Of a stretch of 33,011 nt of DNA, positions 2,354 through 32,576 are shown piece after piece. The stretch lies in the IMG/VR virus record IMGVR_UViG_3300032516_000100, positions 1 through 33,011 of that record, one strand, 5' to 3'. This stretch comes from a virus. Below the pieces are notes generated by a model. It had not been told where the DNA came from and ran no database searches. It was given only the letters and a program-made list of their open reading frames with translations. Position 1 is the first letter of the stretch, and every line of letters starts with the position of its first letter. The position numbers and the translations under genes were made by a program.

Positions 2354-2859
2354 CACCCCATGATGTATTCGAGTACGACCCGGTCACCGGCGACTTCTTC
2401 GTGGTGAAGGAGCGCAGAGGTGCCCCGCGCACACCAAGACTCATCCGTCGTCTAGTAACTTACGTTGATGGTAGAGGTTACCTCAAGGTCCGATTCGATG
2501 GGAAAATGTACGCAGTGCATCGATTGATATTCGTGTTGATGACCGGCTCCTTTCCGAAGGGCGAAGTTGACCACATAAGCGGCGACAAGTGCGACAACCG
2601 TTGGGTGAATCTTCGTGATGTCCCTGTGATCGCCAATCGGCACAACAAAGGGGTTCGTGTTGACAGCGTGTCTGGTGTGACGGGTGTGTGGTGGAGTAAG
2701 GGAAGGCAAAGATGGCAGGCGTACATTCGCCACGAGAACATCCAGCACCACCTCGGATACTTCAAGGAGATGTCGGACGCAGTTGTGGCAAGGCACGCAG
2801 CTGAGCGCGAATACGGGTTTCACCCCAACCACGGGAAGCGTCCATCATGGCGCGGGTGA
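2350..2859 (+). CDS. HNH homing endonuclease with AP2-type DNA-binding domain, inserted in the polymerase gene
   Basis: The ATG at 2350 overlaps the polymerase stop (ATGA); the same frame extends upstream, but only inside polymerase coding sequence. The 169-residue product has an HNH_3-type core: VHRLI (H57), VDHISGDKCDN (D74, H75, N83) and WVNLRDV (N87). An AP2-like DNA-binding segment follows (SGVTGVWWSKGRQRWQAYI, about 108-126, then HLGYF at 134-138). This domain pairing is typical of free-standing phage homing endonucleases. The coding sequence is visibly richer in A+T than the polymerase around it, which fits later arrival. Its last 13 bases overlap the start of the polymerase C-terminal piece. 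No group I intron core or intein splicing motifs fit in the available space. Confidence 0.88.
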   Translation: MTPHDVFEYDPVTGDFFVVKERRGAPRTPRLIRRLVTYVDGRGYLKVRFDGKMYAVHRLIFVLMTGSFPKGEVDHISGDKCDNRWVNLRDVPVIANRHNKGVRVDSVSGVTGVWWSKGRQRWQAYIRHENIQHHLGYFKEMSDAVVARHAAEREYGFHPNHGKRPSWRG

Positions 2860-3269
2860 AGCGCAAGGGCGCCTACGAATACGATGTCGAGTGGCACCAG
2901 GACGCCTCTGCCCTCGTGGTGGCGAAGGTGGCCGAGCAGGTGCTGCTCCACGGTGCCCCGATCCGCGCCACGCTGGAGCAGTGGCCCGATAAGATGGATT
3001 TCATGTTGCGGGCCAAGGTGCCACGAGGGTCGTACCTGCAGTGGGGTGAGGCCCAAGTGCAAAACACGACGAGGTTCTATATAGCCAAGGGCGGCAAGCC
3101 GCTTATGAAGTGGATGCCCCCGCTGGCCGGGAAGGCTGAGTGGCGGCAGATCGGCATCGCAAGCGGATGGAACGTGCAGGTGTGCAACGATGTGAAGGAC
3201 GCCGTGATGCCCATCGATTACGATTATTACGTGAACGAGGTTGAGAAACTGACACTGGGGCTGGTGTGA
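2847..3269 (+). CDS. Family-B-like DNA polymerase, C-terminal part (thumb)
   Basis: This 140-residue product is not a free-standing family I know. It reads as the tail of a phage family-B polymerase. It begins ARVKRKGAYEY, which normally follows the NYIA-type strand of the palm. It continues with EWHQDASALVVAKVAEQ, a PDKMDFMLRAKVPRGS segment, QNTTRFYIAKGG and WRQIGIASGWNVQVCND. The preceding polymerase ORF ends exactly where this sequence should continue (SYIAEYEE), so the two pieces form one ancestral gene interrupted by the HNH ORF. It starts at ATG 2847 inside the endonuclease gene and in another frame. Sequence integrity suggests it is still under selection, and the polymerase would have to assemble from two chains. 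Confidence 0.85.
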   Translation: MARVKRKGAYEYDVEWHQDASALVVAKVAEQVLLHGAPIRATLEQWPDKMDFMLRAKVPRGSYLQWGEAQVQNTTRFYIAKGGKPLMKWMPPLAGKAEWRQIGIASGWNVQVCNDVKDAVMPIDYDYYVNEVEKLTLGLV

Positions 3270-3460
3270 TTGCTGGTTGCTACACGCTCGATCTATATTG
3301 CGACTTGATAAACGAAAAGCACGAGTACCGTGAGTTTCCACATCAATATACAGCGGAGTTCGGATCTTCTTGTCGGGCTAAGGCAAGAAGGCAAGGGTGG
3401 CGATTGAATAAGCGCACTGGATACGCTGTATGTCCGAAGTGCAGTAAGAGGATCAAATGA
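3266..3460 (+). CDS. Small cysteine-containing (zinc-ribbon-like) protein, 64 aa
   Basis: It starts with GTG overlapping the stop of the polymerase C-terminal gene (GTGA) and ends in an ATGA overlap with the radical-SAM gene, so it is coupled on both sides. The protein has cysteines at GCY and LYC near the N-terminus, SSCRAKARRQGW in the middle and VCPKCSKRIK at the end. This arrangement could bind one zinc ion. The basic middle and the C-terminal CPKC knuckle suggest nucleic-acid binding. No specific function can be assigned. Confidence 0.65.
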   Translation: MIAGCYTLDLYCDLINEKHEYREFPHQYTAEFGSSCRAKARRQGWRLNKRTGYAVCPKCSKRIK

Positions 3461-4404
3461 ACGTGCGGCTCACCCAGATCGACGGGGCGTTGCCAAATCT
3501 GGCGCTGATGAAACTCGCGCATTGGCACCGTCAGCGCGGTGACTTTGTTCAAGTGACGCGCCACCTCCATCGGCAAGAAGACGAGCCCACCTACGACAAG
3601 GTGTACGGCAGCAGTATCTTCGACTTCTCACAGTCACGGCGCGAGAACTTCCTGAAGTCGTGGCCTGATGCTGTCATCGGGGGCACCGGCGTCATCGTAT
3701 CACCGACAGTCGAGAGCATCACAGGTGATGACCATCGCGGCGTGGATTACGCAGGATTCCCCGATTTCGATGCGTCCATAGGTTTCACGCAACGCGGTTG
3801 CCGATTGAAATGCAAATTCTGCGTCGTGCCGAAAAAGGAAGGCAAGAACCGCAGCGTCTCGACCATCGGGGAAATCTGGCGCGGCGCACCGCACCCGAAG
3901 AAACTGCATCTGCTCGACAATGATTTCTTCGGGCAGCAGGAATGGCGCGAACGAGTCGCTGAGATCCGTGACGGCGGCTTTCGCGTCTGTCTGTCGCAGG
4001 GTATCAACGTGCGGCTCATTGACGACGAGAGCGCGGCGGCGTTGGCGACTATTCAGTACCGCAATACGAAATTCAACGAACGCAAGTTATACACCGCATG
4101 GGACAACATCGGTGATGAAAAGGTGTTTTTTCGCGGGGTAGACACGCTACAACGTGCGGGTATCCCACCGAGTCATTTGATGGCGTATATGCTTATTGGG
4201 TTCGATCCGCTAGAGACGTGGGAGCGCATTTGGCATCGATTCAATCGAATGGTCGAGATGGGTATCGAGCCTTATCCGATGGTCTACGATAGGCGCAACA
4301 AGAAGTTGTGTCACTTTCAACGGTGGGTGAACACGGGACTGTATCGCATTGTGCCGTGGTTCATGTACGACCCTTGGGTCAAGTTCCAAAAGGAAGCAAC
4401 GTGA
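3457..4404 (+). CDS. Radical SAM protein
   Basis: This 315-residue protein has the radical-SAM cluster motif CRLKCKFC (C115-x3-C119-x2-C122), which ligates a [4Fe-4S] cluster that cleaves S-adenosylmethionine. It is preceded by a region containing AVIGGTGV and followed by LHLLDNDFFG and a barrel-like pattern (LSQGINVRLID, LYTAWDNIGDE, LMAYMLIGFDP). The N-terminal ~100 residues resemble the cobalamin-binding-like or nucleotide-binding lead domain of B12-type radical-SAM proteins, though no DxHxxG motif is evident. Phage radical-SAM proteins of this kind are mostly uncharacterised. Its place between polymerase and nuclease genes suggests a substrate in nucleic acid or nucleotides. It overlaps both neighbours by 4 bases (ATGA, GTGA). 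Confidence 0.82.
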   Translation: MNVRLTQIDGALPNLALMKLAHWHRQRGDFVQVTRHLHRQEDEPTYDKVYGSSIFDFSQSRRENFLKSWPDAVIGGTGVIVSPTVESITGDDHRGVDYAGFPDFDASIGFTQRGCRLKCKFCVVPKKEGKNRSVSTIGEIWRGAPHPKKLHLLDNDFFGQQEWRERVAEIRDGGFRVCLSQGINVRLIDDESAAALATIQYRNTKFNERKLYTAWDNIGDEKVFFRGVDTLQRAGIPPSHLMAYMLIGFDPLETWERIWHRFNRMVEMGIEPYPMVYDRRNKKLCHFQRWVNTGLYRIVPWFMYDPWVKFQKEAT

Positions 4405-26806: not shown

Positions 26807-29010
26807 TGCGGCATTCCTGGTTGCGGTTGCAGTGGTTGCTGACCCAAGCCTGGGTCACCACCCATGTCCATCTCGCCGGTTGGACCCTGCGGGGCTGCAC
26901 CCATCGGGGCGCTCTCGGGAAGCACTTCTCCACCACCCCTGTCTGGTATCTGCCCCACAAGGTCGCCGGTCGAAATGGCCGCGTGGATCGTACCCAGCAC
27001 GATCTCGCTGATCTGCTCCGGCGTCATCGCCGCCGCAGTCGCCGTAATCCGCTTGGTTTCGGCATCGAATGCCTTGATGCCGGCCTCGTACTTGTCGATG
27101 TTGACCTTCTGCTGCTCGATCGAGTGCTGCATCGCCTGCAACGCACCGTGAACCTGGTCGAGCTCCTGCGCCATCGCCTGCATTTGCTGCTGCGCCGCGG
27201 CCATTGCCGGGTCATCAACGTCGGCGAGCACTTTCGGGTCCATTCCCCGCTTCAGACGCTCGGCCATCTCCTCGGCGCCCGGCCAATCCATGTTTTTGAC
27301 GAACAAATCGCCGGCAACGGCCCACAGCTGCGGGTTGCCCTGCAGCACCTGGCTCATTGCTTCCTGCGTTTCCTGCCGTTTGGTGACGTAGGAGGGTCCG
27401 GTGATCACGCGAACGTCGTATTTGCCGACACCCGGGTTGTAGATCTTCATCGCCGCGCTGGTTTCGGTCGCCTCGACCTTGTTCACCGCGACGTTCTGCG
27501 CCGGATTGAGCTTCGCCGTGTCCGGTTCGCCGTCCTCGCCCATGATCCGCGCCACACGCTCAGTATCGTAGATTTTCGGGATCAAATCGACCACGATTCG
27601 CGTGATCTGACGCACAAAACGCCCGTAGTTGTCGACGTAGTGGTAGGTGCCGACCGCCGCCTGGTGCTCGCGGGCCAGAATCGCCTTGCCGGTGCGCTCG
27701 TTTGAGGTCTGCCCGAGACTGGCGTTATACTGCCCCGTGGTCGACTTGATGTCATCCGCAGCGCCGAGCTTTGCCTGCAGCAACCCCGAGGAGGCCATCG
27801 GCGGCTGCGCCCGCTGCGGCAACGGCAATACCCCACCCTGACCATCGGTCACCTCGGAATTGACCTCCAAGTACGGCCAGTTCTGGGTGTTCGCCGTCTT
27901 CCACTTGTCCTCGTAGCCCTCGAACTGGCCCGAGTAACCGATGAACGGGGCCTTGGGCGCAAGGGCGAGCATCTCGGCCTCCTGCGACACCCAGTAGTTG
28001 TACATCCGCTGCGCGTCTTTCGCGTTCCTGACGAGCCCGCTGATGTAGAGCCGGCCGTCGATCTCGAACTCATTGCCGACTAGGCGCACCACCGGGATGC
28101 ACTTGCCGGCCCAGTCGCGCTCCTCGAGCACATCGAAGCCGTTGGTCTTCATCCACTTGATCGTGCAGACCTGCAACTCGCGCTTCTTGAGCACCGGCAT
28201 CGCAAGGTCGGCCATCGCCTTCGCCTGCGGCGAGCCTTCGTAGGCGGTGATGTTGCCAGCGTACAGGTTCAGCGTCTTGCGCTCGTACTCGCGGTAGAAG
28301 TACTCAGCGATCCGTATCGTGTCCTGCCCAAGCCACGGCCCGAACGACTCGTCGCCGGTGCCCTGCGACATGATCGTCGACACCGGCGTCGCATCCGGCC
28401 AGTCACGCTCGTACTCGGTCTTGAGCACGTCCTCGGCGATGAAGCAGAACTCCGCATCCGAGCCGCAGGGGTCCTGGATCAGCGGGTCCATGTAGACCGA
28501 GAACGAGTTCCTGATGCGCCCGATCTTGATGTCCTGGTCGAACGAGGTGTCGTCGCAGTACTCGGTGAACACCCGGGCGTAGCCCTCACCGTAGGTCACT
28601 TGGTTGTCGCAGGCGGTGTCGTAGGCCACATCGGCGTTGCTGATGTACTCGACGTAGCGCACGATGCCGTCGAGCACCTGCGCGACCTCGACATCGGCAG
28701 CGTCATCGACCGGGATCACCTTGCCCGCAGGCCGGTTCTGCCGCTGCTCGTTGGTGACTTGGTGGATGTGCTCGGGCAACTTGTTGATGGTCAGGCAGGG
28801 CCGGGCGTTGATGGTCTGCCCTTGCACAGCGCCGCGAGTGGCCAGAACATCTTGTGGCCACTGATACTGGTTGTCCGGTGACGCGGCGGCGAACTTCAGA
28901 TCGTCCAACTCGTCGTCGCGACTGTCCGAGAGCGCGGCCATCGTCGTCTGCAGACGCTGGCGCATCAACTCCATGCGCTTGTCGCCGCCGGGGACTTTAA
29001 CGTCGCTCAT
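26803..29010 (-). CDS. Portal protein, P22 gp1-like
   Basis: The 735-residue protein is close to the 725 of P22 gp1 and has the family pattern: DDLKFAAASPDNQYQWP, RPCLTINKLPEHIHQVTNEQ, RQNRPAGKVIPVDD, ACDNQVTYGEGYARVFTEY and RIRNSFSVYMDP. The C-terminal part has a long barrel-type helix with Gln-rich coiled coil (MAAAQQQMQAMAQELDQVHGALQAMQ) and ends in a Pro/Gln/Gly-rich tail (GDPGLGQQPLQPQPGMPQ). The portal is the dodecameric ring through which DNA is packaged and ejected. It follows the large terminase gene by 12 bases. Confidence 0.88.
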   Translation of the reverse strand: MSDVKVPGGDKRMELMRQRLQTTMAALSDSRDDELDDLKFAAASPDNQYQWPQDVLATRGAVQGQTINARPCLTINKLPEHIHQVTNEQRQNRPAGKVIPVDDAADVEVAQVLDGIVRYVEYISNADVAYDTACDNQVTYGEGYARVFTEYCDDTSFDQDIKIGRIRNSFSVYMDPLIQDPCGSDAEFCFIAEDVLKTEYERDWPDATPVSTIMSQGTGDESFGPWLGQDTIRIAEYFYREYERKTLNLYAGNITAYEGSPQAKAMADLAMPVLKKRELQVCTIKWMKTNGFDVLEERDWAGKCIPVVRLVGNEFEIDGRLYISGLVRNAKDAQRMYNYWVSQEAEMLALAPKAPFIGYSGQFEGYEDKWKTANTQNWPYLEVNSEVTDGQGGVLPLPQRAQPPMASSGLLQAKLGAADDIKSTTGQYNASLGQTSNERTGKAILAREHQAAVGTYHYVDNYGRFVRQITRIVVDLIPKIYDTERVARIMGEDGEPDTAKLNPAQNVAVNKVEATETSAAMKIYNPGVGKYDVRVITGPSYVTKRQETQEAMSQVLQGNPQLWAVAGDLFVKNMDWPGAEEMAERLKRGMDPKVLADVDDPAMAAAQQQMQAMAQELDQVHGALQAMQHSIEQQKVNIDKYEAGIKAFDAETKRITATAAAMTPEQISEIVLGTIHAAISTGDLVGQIPDRGGGEVLPESAPMGAAPQGPTGEMDMGGDPGLGQQPLQPQPGMPQ

Positions 29011-30558: not shown

Positions 30559-30626
30559 CAGTCGTCCATCAGCAGATAGACCAACAGCGCCGCGCACACG
30601 AGCCCGCCGATGAGTGCGCCGATCAT
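30558..30626 (-). CDS. 22-residue membrane peptide between the terminase genes
   Basis: The ATG (30626-30624) shares one base with the small-terminase stop, and its own stop (30560-30558) shares one base with the large-terminase ATG. Both junctions read TGATG. The peptide is a single hydrophobic helix, IGALIGGLVCAALLVYLL, ending MDD. A frame that precisely bridges both neighbours is unlikely to be accidental, and it may keep ribosomes moving between the two terminase genes. Any membrane role is unknown. Confidence 0.55.
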   Translation of the reverse strand: MIGALIGGLVCAALLVYLLMDD

Positions 30627-31138
30627 CACTCGCTCTCAATCATCTTGGCCTGCTCATGCTCGATCAACCGGCTATTCGCCGCCGCCAGCGCCGCGACGAT
30701 GGATATGTTCTGGTTGATCTCGATCTGCTGGGTGGCCCGATAACGTCGATCGTGCGCCGCCACATACCACTTCACGGTGCCCACTCGCGCCTTATAGCGT
30801 TCGACATCCTCGGGGATGGTGGCCTCATCCATCGCCTCGAAGTCCATCACATCATCAACCAGCGAGTCGCAGCCAATGCGCTTGGCCTCGTAGTACTGCT
30901 TATCGCGCTCCGCGTCGCGGTGAATCCACGCCTTGAAGCGGTCCTCGTCGAGTTTGACCGGGTAGTGCTTCACGAATGACTTGAGGAACCGGCCACGACC
31001 TAGAGCATCAAGCAGCGCGGGGAATGCGATCTCGAATCGTGTACGTTCGAGTTCACGCTCGGAGCGCGTGCTGCGCCGTTGTGACTCGCGCTGTTCGGGC
31101 TGTTCGGGCATCAACCATTCGGGGAGCGTTGCGTCCAT
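30626..31138 (-). CDS. Terminase small subunit (probable)
   Basis: The 170-residue protein has an N-terminal Arg/Glu-rich region, then a helical DNA-binding-like part (EIAFPALLDALGRGRFLKSFV, DRFKAWIHRDAERDKQYYEAKRIG). A C-terminal block follows, VERYKARVGTVKWYVAAHDRRY...QQIEINQNISIVAALAAANSRLI, typical of phage small-terminase proteins (HHD..Y, V.W...H.RY). Small terminases recognise the packaging site and load the large subunit. It is the first gene of the leftward operon and precedes the large-terminase gene. No Shine-Dalgarno sequence is obvious upstream. Confidence 0.72.
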   Translation of the reverse strand: MDATLPEWLMPEQPEQRESQRRSTRSERELERTRFEIAFPALLDALGRGRFLKSFVKHYPVKLDEDRFKAWIHRDAERDKQYYEAKRIGCDSLVDDVMDFEAMDEATIPEDVERYKARVGTVKWYVAAHDRRYRATQQIEINQNISIVAALAAANSRLIEHEQAKMIESE

Positions 31139-31145
31139 AGCGGGT

Positions 31146-31175
31146 AGCGTAGGGGTGATTGGTCATAGTTGTCAA
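31146..31175 (-). promoter_or_regulatory. Candidate sigma70 promoter of the late operon
   Basis: On the - strand a perfect -35 box TTGACA (31175-31170) is followed after 18 bases by TACGCT (31151-31146), a 3/6 match to the -10 consensus. Transcription would start about at the ATG of the small-terminase gene (31138), giving a leaderless or almost leaderless mRNA. Without a better -10 the call stays moderate. Confidence 0.4.
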
Positions 31176-31196
31176 TGGTGTCCGTTGGATCATTGA

Positions 31197-31213
31197 GAAA
31201 TTTGAAAAATTTC
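31197..31213. repeat. Perfect A/T-rich dyad
   Basis: GAAATTT (31197-31203) and AAATTTC (31207-31213) form a perfect 7-base inverted repeat with a 3-base centre. It lies about 20 bases upstream of the late -35 box, a position suited to an activator or repressor. No factor can be named. Confidence 0.55.
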
Positions 31214-31227
31214 CCAGAAAAAATTGT

Positions 31228-31328
31228 TCACGGGTTCACCGTGACACTCACCGGCCCTCGCGGGCCCTGACCCCCGGCCTCGGTGCGGCCGCGGCGCCGT
31301 GAGGCGCGGGCGCCCAGGCGCGGCGCCT
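31228..31328. repeat. Cluster of short GC-rich dyads
   Basis: Perfect inverted repeats lie in series: TCACGG/CCGTGA (31228-31233 with 31239-31244), GGCCC/GGGCC (31253-31257 with 31262-31266), GGCGC/GCGCC (31303-31307 with 31310-31314) and AGGCGC/GCGCCT (31316-31321 with 31323-31328). The palindrome GCGGCCGC lies at 31286-31293. They could fold as a chain of hairpins, or be binding sites. Part of the excess of dyads follows from the very high G+C here. Confidence 0.5.
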
Positions 31329-31413: not shown

Positions 31414-31513
31414 CCAATGGATCATGCATTCCTGCGCCAATGGATCAGCTGCACCAGATGCACTCAATAACGCAAGGCATGACCCATTGGCGCAGGAATA
31501 CATGATCCATTGG
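31414..31513. repeat. 34-base near-perfect inverted repeat with CCAATGG boxes
   Basis: The arms 31414-31447 and 31480-31513 match in 32 of 34 positions and flank a 32-base spacer. Each arm contains two copies of CCAATGGATCA or its close variant, 23 bases apart and in the same orientation within the arm. The result is four boxes arranged symmetrically about 31463.5. The right arm holds one change in its inner box (TGACCCATTGG for TGATCCATTGG). The structure could form a cruciform, or bind a dimeric or tetrameric protein. Confidence 0.85.
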
Positions 31514-31526
31514 GGTAAGGCGACTG

Positions 31527-31558
31527 CCTGCACCAAAGTTACAAAACCCCGGTGCAGG
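31527..31558. repeat. 8-base inverted repeat (CCTGCACC/GGTGCAGG)
   Basis: CCTGCACC at 31527-31534 and GGTGCAGG at 31551-31558 are exact complements around 16 bases. The core CTGCACC recurs at 31449 and 31647 in the same region, twice followed by AGA, so it is a second recurring motif beside CCAATGG. Confidence 0.6.
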
Positions 31559-31768
31559 TAAATTAGATTAATGAAATCAATAGGTTGTGGATTTTTCACC
31601 CAATGGATGCGCTTTTTTTATCCTTTTAGATCAACGAGTTACGGGCCTGCACCAGAATCACTATGCGGGGAGACGATTTTTAGAATCTCTTTTTTAAGTA
31701 ATTCGCCCGATTTCCCAAAACCTGTTATGTATATTAAGAGTAACTTTGGCGCAGACGACACACTGATC

Positions 31769-31820
31769 CAACTGACTCCCAATCACCTAATCTCCCAACT
31801 GACTCCCAGTCACCTAATAT
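31769..31820. repeat. Tandem repeat, two 25-base copies, period 27
   Basis: CAACTGACTCCC plus AATCACCTAATCT (31769-31793) is repeated as CAACTGACTCCC plus AGTCACCTAATAT (31796-31820), with two differences in 25. The inverse of ATCACCTAA appears again as TTAGGTGAT at 31872-31880, downstream of the promoter. The copies sit just upstream of the -35 box, as activator or repressor sites often do. Confidence 0.75.
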
Positions 31821-31832
31821 TCCATTGGACAC

Positions 31833-31861
31833 TTGACAAGCCTCACCCATTGGACTATTGT
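31833..31861 (+). promoter_or_regulatory. Strong sigma70-type promoter for the rightward operon
   Basis: TTGACA (31833-31838, perfect) and TATTGT (31856-31861, 4/6) are separated by exactly 17 bases. The start would fall near 31868, about 40 bases ahead of the GP88-family start. A CCATTGG box lies inside the spacer (31847-31853), another just before the -35 (31822-31828) and a third over the ribosome-binding site (31893-31899). A protein binding these boxes would block the promoter. Confidence 0.72.
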
Positions 31862-31910
31862 TCAATTGTAGTTAGGTGATCGTAACGTAAACCCAATGGA
31901 GCACACTCGA

Positions 31911-32576
31911 ATGAAGCCCACTATCCCGATTCTCACACTGCGCCAAGCCGCCGAGATCCATGGCGGCATGTCGCAGACGTCCAAGATGCCTTGCAAGAGC
32001 TCTAGCTTGCCGACGATCGCGTGTAACGTCGGCGAGAAAATGAGCAAGGTGCCAGGCAGCATTTGCGGCACTTGCTACGCCAACAAAGGCAATTACCTGA
32101 AGTACGCAGCAAACATCGAACCGGCGCAGCACGCTCGGTTGGTCGCACTCGATGATCCGCTGTGGCTGGACGCTATGGTCCGCACGATCGGGAGTGATCA
32201 GTACTTCCGCCACCACGATTCAGGTGATCTGCAGAGCTTGGCGCATCTCGAGTTGATCGTCGAGCTTGCCCGCCGCACGCCTGGGTGTCGCCATTGGTTG
32301 CCTACTCGTGAGTACGCCGTGGTTATGGCATTCGTTGCCAAGCACGGGCGCGATGCGATACCGGCCAACCTCGTGATTCGTTTGTCCGCCATGTTCCCGG
32401 ACAAGCCTGTGCGTATTCCGACGTCACTGATGGGCGTCCGCGGTATCGCAACATCGAATGTACATGCTGCAGCTGCGCCGGTAGGCCAGGCGTGCGCGGC
32501 GCCGGCGCAAGGTGGCGCGTGTCAGGACTGTCGCGCCTGTTGGTCCGACGTTACCGTGTCCTACAAACTGCACTAG
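31911..32576 (+). CDS. GP88-family phage protein, 221 aa
   Basis: The ATG at 31911 is chosen because GGAG (31898-31901) lies nine bases before it; the in-frame ATG at 31896 has no ribosome-binding site. The protein matches the phage GP88 family pattern: SKMPCKSSSLPTIACNVGEK, VPGSICGTCYANKGNY, HHDSGDLQSLAHLELIVELA, RRTPGCRHWLPTREYAVV, NLVIRLSAMFPDKPV and a Cys-rich end (GGACQDCRACWS). Conserved cysteines plus His/Asp suggest a metal site (zinc or Fe-S). The biochemical role of the family is not established. As the first gene after the repeat-rich promoter it is probably expressed early. Confidence 0.8.
   Translation: MKPTIPILTLRQAAEIHGGMSQTSKMPCKSSSLPTIACNVGEKMSKVPGSICGTCYANKGNYLKYAANIEPAQHARLVALDDPLWLDAMVRTIGSDQYFRHHDSGDLQSLAHLELIVELARRTPGCRHWLPTREYAVVMAFVAKHGRDAIPANLVIRLSAMFPDKPVRIPTSLMGVRGIATSNVHAAAAPVGQACAAPAQGGACQDCRACWSDVTVSYKLH

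Follow-up and report, generated by a model that had tools for sequence, protein, structure and literature searches.

A palindromic box array between terS and the early genes of P22-like podoviruses: a probable operator region for an early-to-late switch

Layout of the divergent intergenic region

The DNA analysed here, referred to as the window, is a 33,011-bp IMG/VR fragment of a P22-like podovirus. The genes for terS, terL, the portal, coat and stabilisation proteins run leftward and the replication genes rightward. Gene content and order match those of the P22-like podoviruses DSL-LC05 (OR003940) and MW202483, relative to which several kb of early genes are missing from the window. A search of genome collections found terL in a single record, a gammaproteobacterial MAG contig of 3.2 kb that is uninformative on host or prophage state. 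Among the replication genes there is a radical SAM-like gene at 3457-4404 (+), and the DNA polymerase gene is seemingly split into two pieces, at 944-2353 and 2847-3269 (+), the second of which matched polymerase profiles. An HNH_3 endonuclease ORF (2254-2859) lies between the pieces, and the interruption looks like the insertion of a mobile endonuclease or an intron; an Rfam search of the interrupted polymerase region gave no intron match.

The array of short boxes examined in this work lies between terS and the first rightward gene, which belongs to the GP88 family. The flanking genes and the predicted features of the central part are:

30626-31138, minus strand: terS, terminase small subunit, first gene of the leftward late cluster
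31414-31447, plus strand: left arm of a 34-bp inverted repeat, with boxes at 31414-31420 and 31437-31443
31448-31479, no strand: 32-nt spacer between the arms, 29/32 identical to the nearest relative, L005
31480-31513, minus strand: right arm of the inverted repeat, with boxes at 31484-31490 and 31507-31513
31600-31606, plus strand: operator box CCAATGG
31647-31754, no strand: AT-rich core between the inverted elements CTGCACCA...TGGCGCAG, also kept in L005
31911-32576, plus strand: first rightward early gene, GP88 family (PF17338)

The 34-nt arms, 32 nt apart, match at 32 of 34 paired positions, and exact CCAATGG occurs at 31414, 31437, 31484 (-) and 31507 (-). This recount bore out the earlier note, which had described four boxes inside a 34-base inverted repeat, two per arm and 23 bases apart, in a divergent intergenic region. 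Its judgement that the repeat is far from chance also held, as the 772-bp intergenic region, shuffled 60 times with dinucleotides preserved, gave an inverted match of 21/34 at best. A reading of the hairpin against Rfam gave only a sub-threshold match to the plant family MIR1222 (32 bits against a cut-off of 90), a score that any long hairpin might reach, and was rejected.

Further exact CCAWTGG boxes were found at 31600, 31822 (-), 31847 (-) and 31893. Together with a degenerate box at 31182 (CCGTTGG), the array comprises eight exact boxes (31414 to 31899) and one degenerate box; it spans the divergent region from the late, leftward terS to the rightward early genes, and the four boxes of the repeat form its middle. 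A single 900-bp stretch holds nine exact boxes, including one at 32291 inside the first early gene, versus three across the other 32 kb (Poisson P 2e-15). When the eight exact boxes were used to train a position matrix, they themselves scored at least 14.5 and nothing else in the 33-kb window exceeded 10.2. The motif CCA-W-TGG is a near-palindrome about one centre base, with an extended site of approximately TGATCCAWTGGATCA, and the orientation of a box is therefore set only by the centre base and the flanks.

Another repeated motif, CTGCRCCA, occurs at 31432, 31449, 31488 (-), 31528, 31647 and 31747 (-); these six intergenic copies compare with 0.3 expected, and some overlap the inner operator boxes. 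The AT-rich core, about 100 bp long, lies between array and early promoter and is conserved there, with equivalents in four further relatives (L009, L013, L017 and L003). In ACCC-type relatives the equivalent core has different arms, GTGCGTCAATTGTGAC..GTCACAATTGACGCAC. Formation of an RNA stem by these arms was considered and rejected, as the alignment indicated that complementarity is not kept in two of these relatives (L056 and L026).

Boxes at the early and late promoters

Promoters were identified as consensus matches on the assumption of a sigma70-type host polymerase. The predicted promoters of the window and the boxes next to them are:

31146-31175, minus strand: late terS promoter with weak -10, TTGACA-18-TACGCT
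31182-31188, no strand: degenerate operator box (TCCAACGGA on the minus strand), centred at about -46 of the terS promoter; L005 has CCACTGG there
31822-31828, minus strand: operator box just upstream of the early -35
31833-31861, plus strand: early sigma70-type promoter TTGACA-17-TATTGT, with spacing and box position the same in L005
31847-31853, minus strand: operator box in the early-promoter spacer, 14 nt from the -35 start, in the same register in L005
31893-31899, plus strand: operator box over the ribosome-binding site of the first early gene (GGAG, 31898-31901), identical in L005

The early promoter of L005 reads TTGACA-17-TATATT, and its box stands at the same offset as in the window. 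The same arrangement was found with another operator type. A promoter scoring at least 10 was present in 36 of 50 non-redundant ACCC-type loci, and the best one was overlapped by a box in all 36. With circularly shifted boxes the overlap was 38% (P 6e-16, a value that overstates the number of independent events because the 50 loci are related). The lineage box definitions were derived from the same regions that were later used for this test; the test compares positions, and its null preserves the boxes' own arrangement. The box stood 11-13 nt from the -35 start in 30 of the 36 loci, usually abutting the -10, and 3 nt from it in the other 6; some of the 30 have another box at the -10. At least two separate operator types, that of the window and L005 and that of the ACCC lineages, share one placement, and as judged from the predicted promoters this is the geometry of a repressor site. 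In most ATTG loci the best early promoter carried no box.

On the late side, a box adjoins a weak terS promoter, and terS promoters score low. A terS-side box is almost always present in lineages with an Xre gene and lies upstream of the promoter, not inside it; the box of the window scores 9.2, which is background level. When terS starts were anchored on conserved sequence, the gap between the box and the -35 was mostly 3-5, 12-16 or 23-24 nt, which puts the box centres near -45, -55 and, rarely, -65. At a period of 10.5 bp the positions had a concentration of 0.78, i.e. they lie one helical turn apart; the P value for this phasing, approximate since the relatives are not independent, is 0.007 to 0.0006 for 8-12 effective lineages. 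Such placement is activator geometry and suggests activation of terS.

On the leftward strand, a conserved GC-rich stretch immediately upstream of the terS promoter is followed by ACAATTTTTT(ATTTTTT) (window 31205-31290), and the same stretch is present in L005, L017, L009 and others. It is a candidate terminator-like element, UP-element-like element or packaging site.

Conservation of the array and its linkage to an Xre-family gene

L005, whose terL is 81% identical to that of the window, could be aligned throughout the intergenic region. It has kept nine CCANTGG boxes and the early promoter, as well as the box at the ribosome-binding site. The spacer separating the arms is also retained, and a scan for this spacer matched only the L005 contig. 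Thus, the boxes are present at the syntenic position in a relative, where the earlier note would have taken the loss of both repeat and boxes as counter-evidence. An inverted-repeat search of L005 detected none of the minimum search size, so the 34-bp arms are not kept: they are disrupted by indels, and both inner boxes have a central G, a G/G combination that could not pair if a hairpin formed. As L005 keeps the boxes but not the arms, selection appears to maintain the boxes, and these, rather than a cruciform, appear to be the conserved unit.

About 50 relatives have an array at the same place, built from lineage-specific palindromes, CCAWTGG, ACCCANTGGGT or TCACANTGTGA. Besides CCAWTGG, the syntenic palindromes were ACCCNNNGGGT (best written as ACCCANTGGGT), CACANTGTG (as TCACANTGTGA), ATTGNCAAT and, in MW202483, GTTTANGTAAAC; all lineage palindromes have the same symmetry about a 1-bp centre. 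In the genomes examined the matching box was concentrated at the syntenic place, with Poisson P values of about 1e-8 to 1e-19 in clear cases. The concentration was weaker in genome G005, whose boxes are more widely scattered; G008 and G010 had no recognisable array. DSL-LC05 has a ACCCAGTGGGT array with one box in the early promoter. Syntenic arrays were also seen in L061, L077 and other ATTGNCAAT-type loci (ATTGCCAAT) and in L004 at about 28220-28600 (GTTTACGTAAAC); no HTH_3 gene was found at these loci. In L061 and L077, long runs of short GGTC / GGTCGGC tandem repeats separate the array from terS.

The 'repressor protein C' of DSL-LC05 (WJZ48189), of the Xre family, has homologues in the ACCC, CACA and CCAWTGG lineages. 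Among 54 terL loci with enough early sequence, such a homologue was present in 20 of the 21 with these arrays versus 2 of the 33 others (Fisher 1.4e-11). The two exceptions among the latter, L006 and L007, have a variant TCACA array, and their reclassification gave a value of 3e-14. In a search that started from the protein, the array was found beside the gene in most loci; where it was absent, the contig mostly ended just upstream, the exceptions being the divergent loci L227 and L228. The gene lies 1.5-3.2 kb past the early promoter, inside the early operon. No homologue was found in the 33-kb window, which ends 1.2 kb after the promoter and before the expected place; the window's own regulator gene presumably lies beyond this end, its identity being taken from one close relative, L005.

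The protein of L005, 71 aa long, scored 24.5 bits with the HTH_3 profile (cut-off 23) and that of L029 28.1 bits, while the DSL-LC05 protein and the T[KR]SALY type fall below the Pfam HTH_3 threshold, yet align to the same family. The AlphaFold model of the L005 protein (pLDDT 91.8) has five helices in a lambda-repressor-like fold. Its nearest solved folds were HigA2, Aca2, MqsA and P2 C, with TM values of up to about 0.7; no Foldseek E value was below 0.001. The recognition helix varied with the operator: P[VIL][FY]T..K occurred with ACCCANTGGGT, T[KR]SALY with TCACANTGTGA and ARPTADK, in L005, with CCAWTGG. With only four helix types, this apparent tracking between helix 3 and operator is an association and no recognition code. 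By this pattern the DSL-LC05 protein would be expected to act on ACCCAGTGGGT, not TCACAATGTGA. The linkage of gene and array and the tracking of helix and operator indicate that a small single-domain Cro/CI-type (Xre, HTH_3) protein is most likely the binder of the boxes. Arrays nevertheless occupy the syntenic position in two lineages without the HTH gene, the ATTG lineage (ATTGNCAAT) and MW202483 (GTTTANGTAAAC), so the array does not require the Xre protein. HTH_3 and homology searches of these two found neither an HTH_3 protein nor a WJZ48189 homologue, and reading their ORF lists by eye gave no convincing regulator candidate.

A proposed early-to-late switch and its alternatives

Computation established that the array exists, where its boxes lie relative to the predicted promoters, that it is conserved and that it is linked to the Xre protein. 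On this sequence evidence, the array is probably the early-to-late switch of a lytic P22-like podovirus, at which the Xre protein would repress the early and activate the late genes. Early in infection the strong rightward promoter would be used by the host RNA polymerase. The Xre protein made from the early operon would bind as a dimer to TGATCCAWTGGATCA-like palindromes and, as it accumulates, fill the box in the early promoter and that at the first ribosome-binding site. This would turn off the early genes, including the regulator's own gene, in negative autoregulation. Such early repression is strongly implied by the placement of the boxes. Bound to the box some 45 bp ahead of the weak terS promoter, the same Xre protein would be placed so as to bring polymerase to the genes for packaging and structural proteins; we infer late activation from this geometry. 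More speculatively, the boxes in the centre, the inverted pair of pairs among them, may increase local occupancy or make cooperative or looped binding possible between the two promoters.

A Cro-like repressor alone might also account for the array. It would shut off the early genes and itself, late genes would rise by other means, e.g. copy number, and the terS-side box would insulate terS or repress it early. The early-promoter placement is the strongest result, the terS-side box of the window is weak, and small Xre proteins such as Cro and Aca2 act as repressors, all of which fit. However, a terS-side box that is nearly universal in Xre lineages and helix-phased upstream of a weak promoter has activator geometry, and we consider repression alone unlikely.

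Of the functions proposed in the earlier note, an operator for a dimeric regulator gained support from promoter placement, from conservation of the boxes and from their association with an Xre-family protein, the recognition helix of which varies with the box type. Its replication origin fared less well. The boxes would then be iterons bound by a phage initiator, with the inverted repeat and the AT-rich core as origin; direct and inverted repeats do adjoin an AT-rich core flanked by inverted elements, and arrays persist in some lineages without the Xre gene. But the boxes stand in a fixed early-promoter register and are phased upstream of terS, their spacing is irregular, array presence tracks a transcription-factor gene, and in five relatives whose sequences are of roughly full length the cumulative GC skew had no extreme at the intergenic region. 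Origin iterons are thus quite improbable; the AT-rich core itself remains a candidate origin.

A lysogeny immunity region, in which array and Xre protein hold the prophage state as CI does, would agree with the protein family and the multi-operator divergent layout. It is very improbable, however, as the regulator sits within the early operon with no divergent repressor gene, neither tyrosine integrase (PF00589) nor serine resolvase (PF00239) was detected in 16 relatives (controls were positive), the genome-collection search found terL in the single MAG contig only, and DSL-LC05 is predicted to be lytic (PMC10611076). The cruciform of the earlier note, or an RNA hairpin, acting by extrusion or folding of the 34-bp repeat, is barely credible: the repeat of the window folds far better than shuffles (z -8.3), but its perfect arms are private to the window, and L005, with broken arms and G/G box centres, folds much more weakly (z -3.7).

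The proposed switch resembles that of phi29, where one early protein, p4, represses the early promoters A2b/A2c and activates the late promoter A3 (PMC3100819). Both have inverted-repeat sites around early and late promoters, host RNA polymerase and a weak late promoter; here, too, one site lies in or over the early promoter and another, degenerate in the window, upstream of the weak late promoter. In phi29, p4 acts together with the nucleoid protein p6 and A-tracts, whereas here there are 8-12 palindromic boxes and a putative Cro/CI-type protein with a presumed activating role. The resemblance would be one of logic alone; no family membership is claimed, the regulator being assigned to HTH_3.

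In phage lambda, the operators of CI and Cro are odd-length palindromes among divergent promoters, and one of them lies upstream of a potentially activated promoter. The present array shares with lambda and P22 the HTH_3-family protein, the odd-length palindromes, the divergent promoters and an operator placed for activation. Unlike in those phages, no lysogeny genes or divergent repressor were found, the genes predicted to be controlled are terS and the early operon, and instead of three adjacent operators about 9-12 sites are spread over some 750 bp. Mycobacteriophage stoperators, the sites of cluster A repressors, are likewise many copies of one phage repressor's site in one genome, but they lack symmetry and are scattered through the phage genome (PMC9283540), whereas the sites here are palindromic and confined to one region. 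DSL-LC05 belongs to the same phage group and shares gene order, Xre family and a box in the early promoter, differing in operator sequence; its genome paper makes no mention of operators, promoters or a repressor (PMC10611076). A literature search found no paper on this switch.

Tentatively, this group of uncultured lytic podoviruses may use a tiny Xre protein with a many-operator array in which operator and recognition helix were repeatedly rewritten together while the promoter geometry stayed fixed. The protein-less sisters that keep another palindrome array could then reflect wholesale replacement of the switch protein. The finding provides a testable regulatory circuit for a large uncultured phage group for which otherwise only gene lists were found. 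Tens of regulator-operator pairs in a constant promoter frame, in which recognition helix and half-site vary jointly, would form a natural data set on how the DNA specificity of Cro/CI-type proteins changes, and the lineage-specific boxes could help to assign fragments to lineages.
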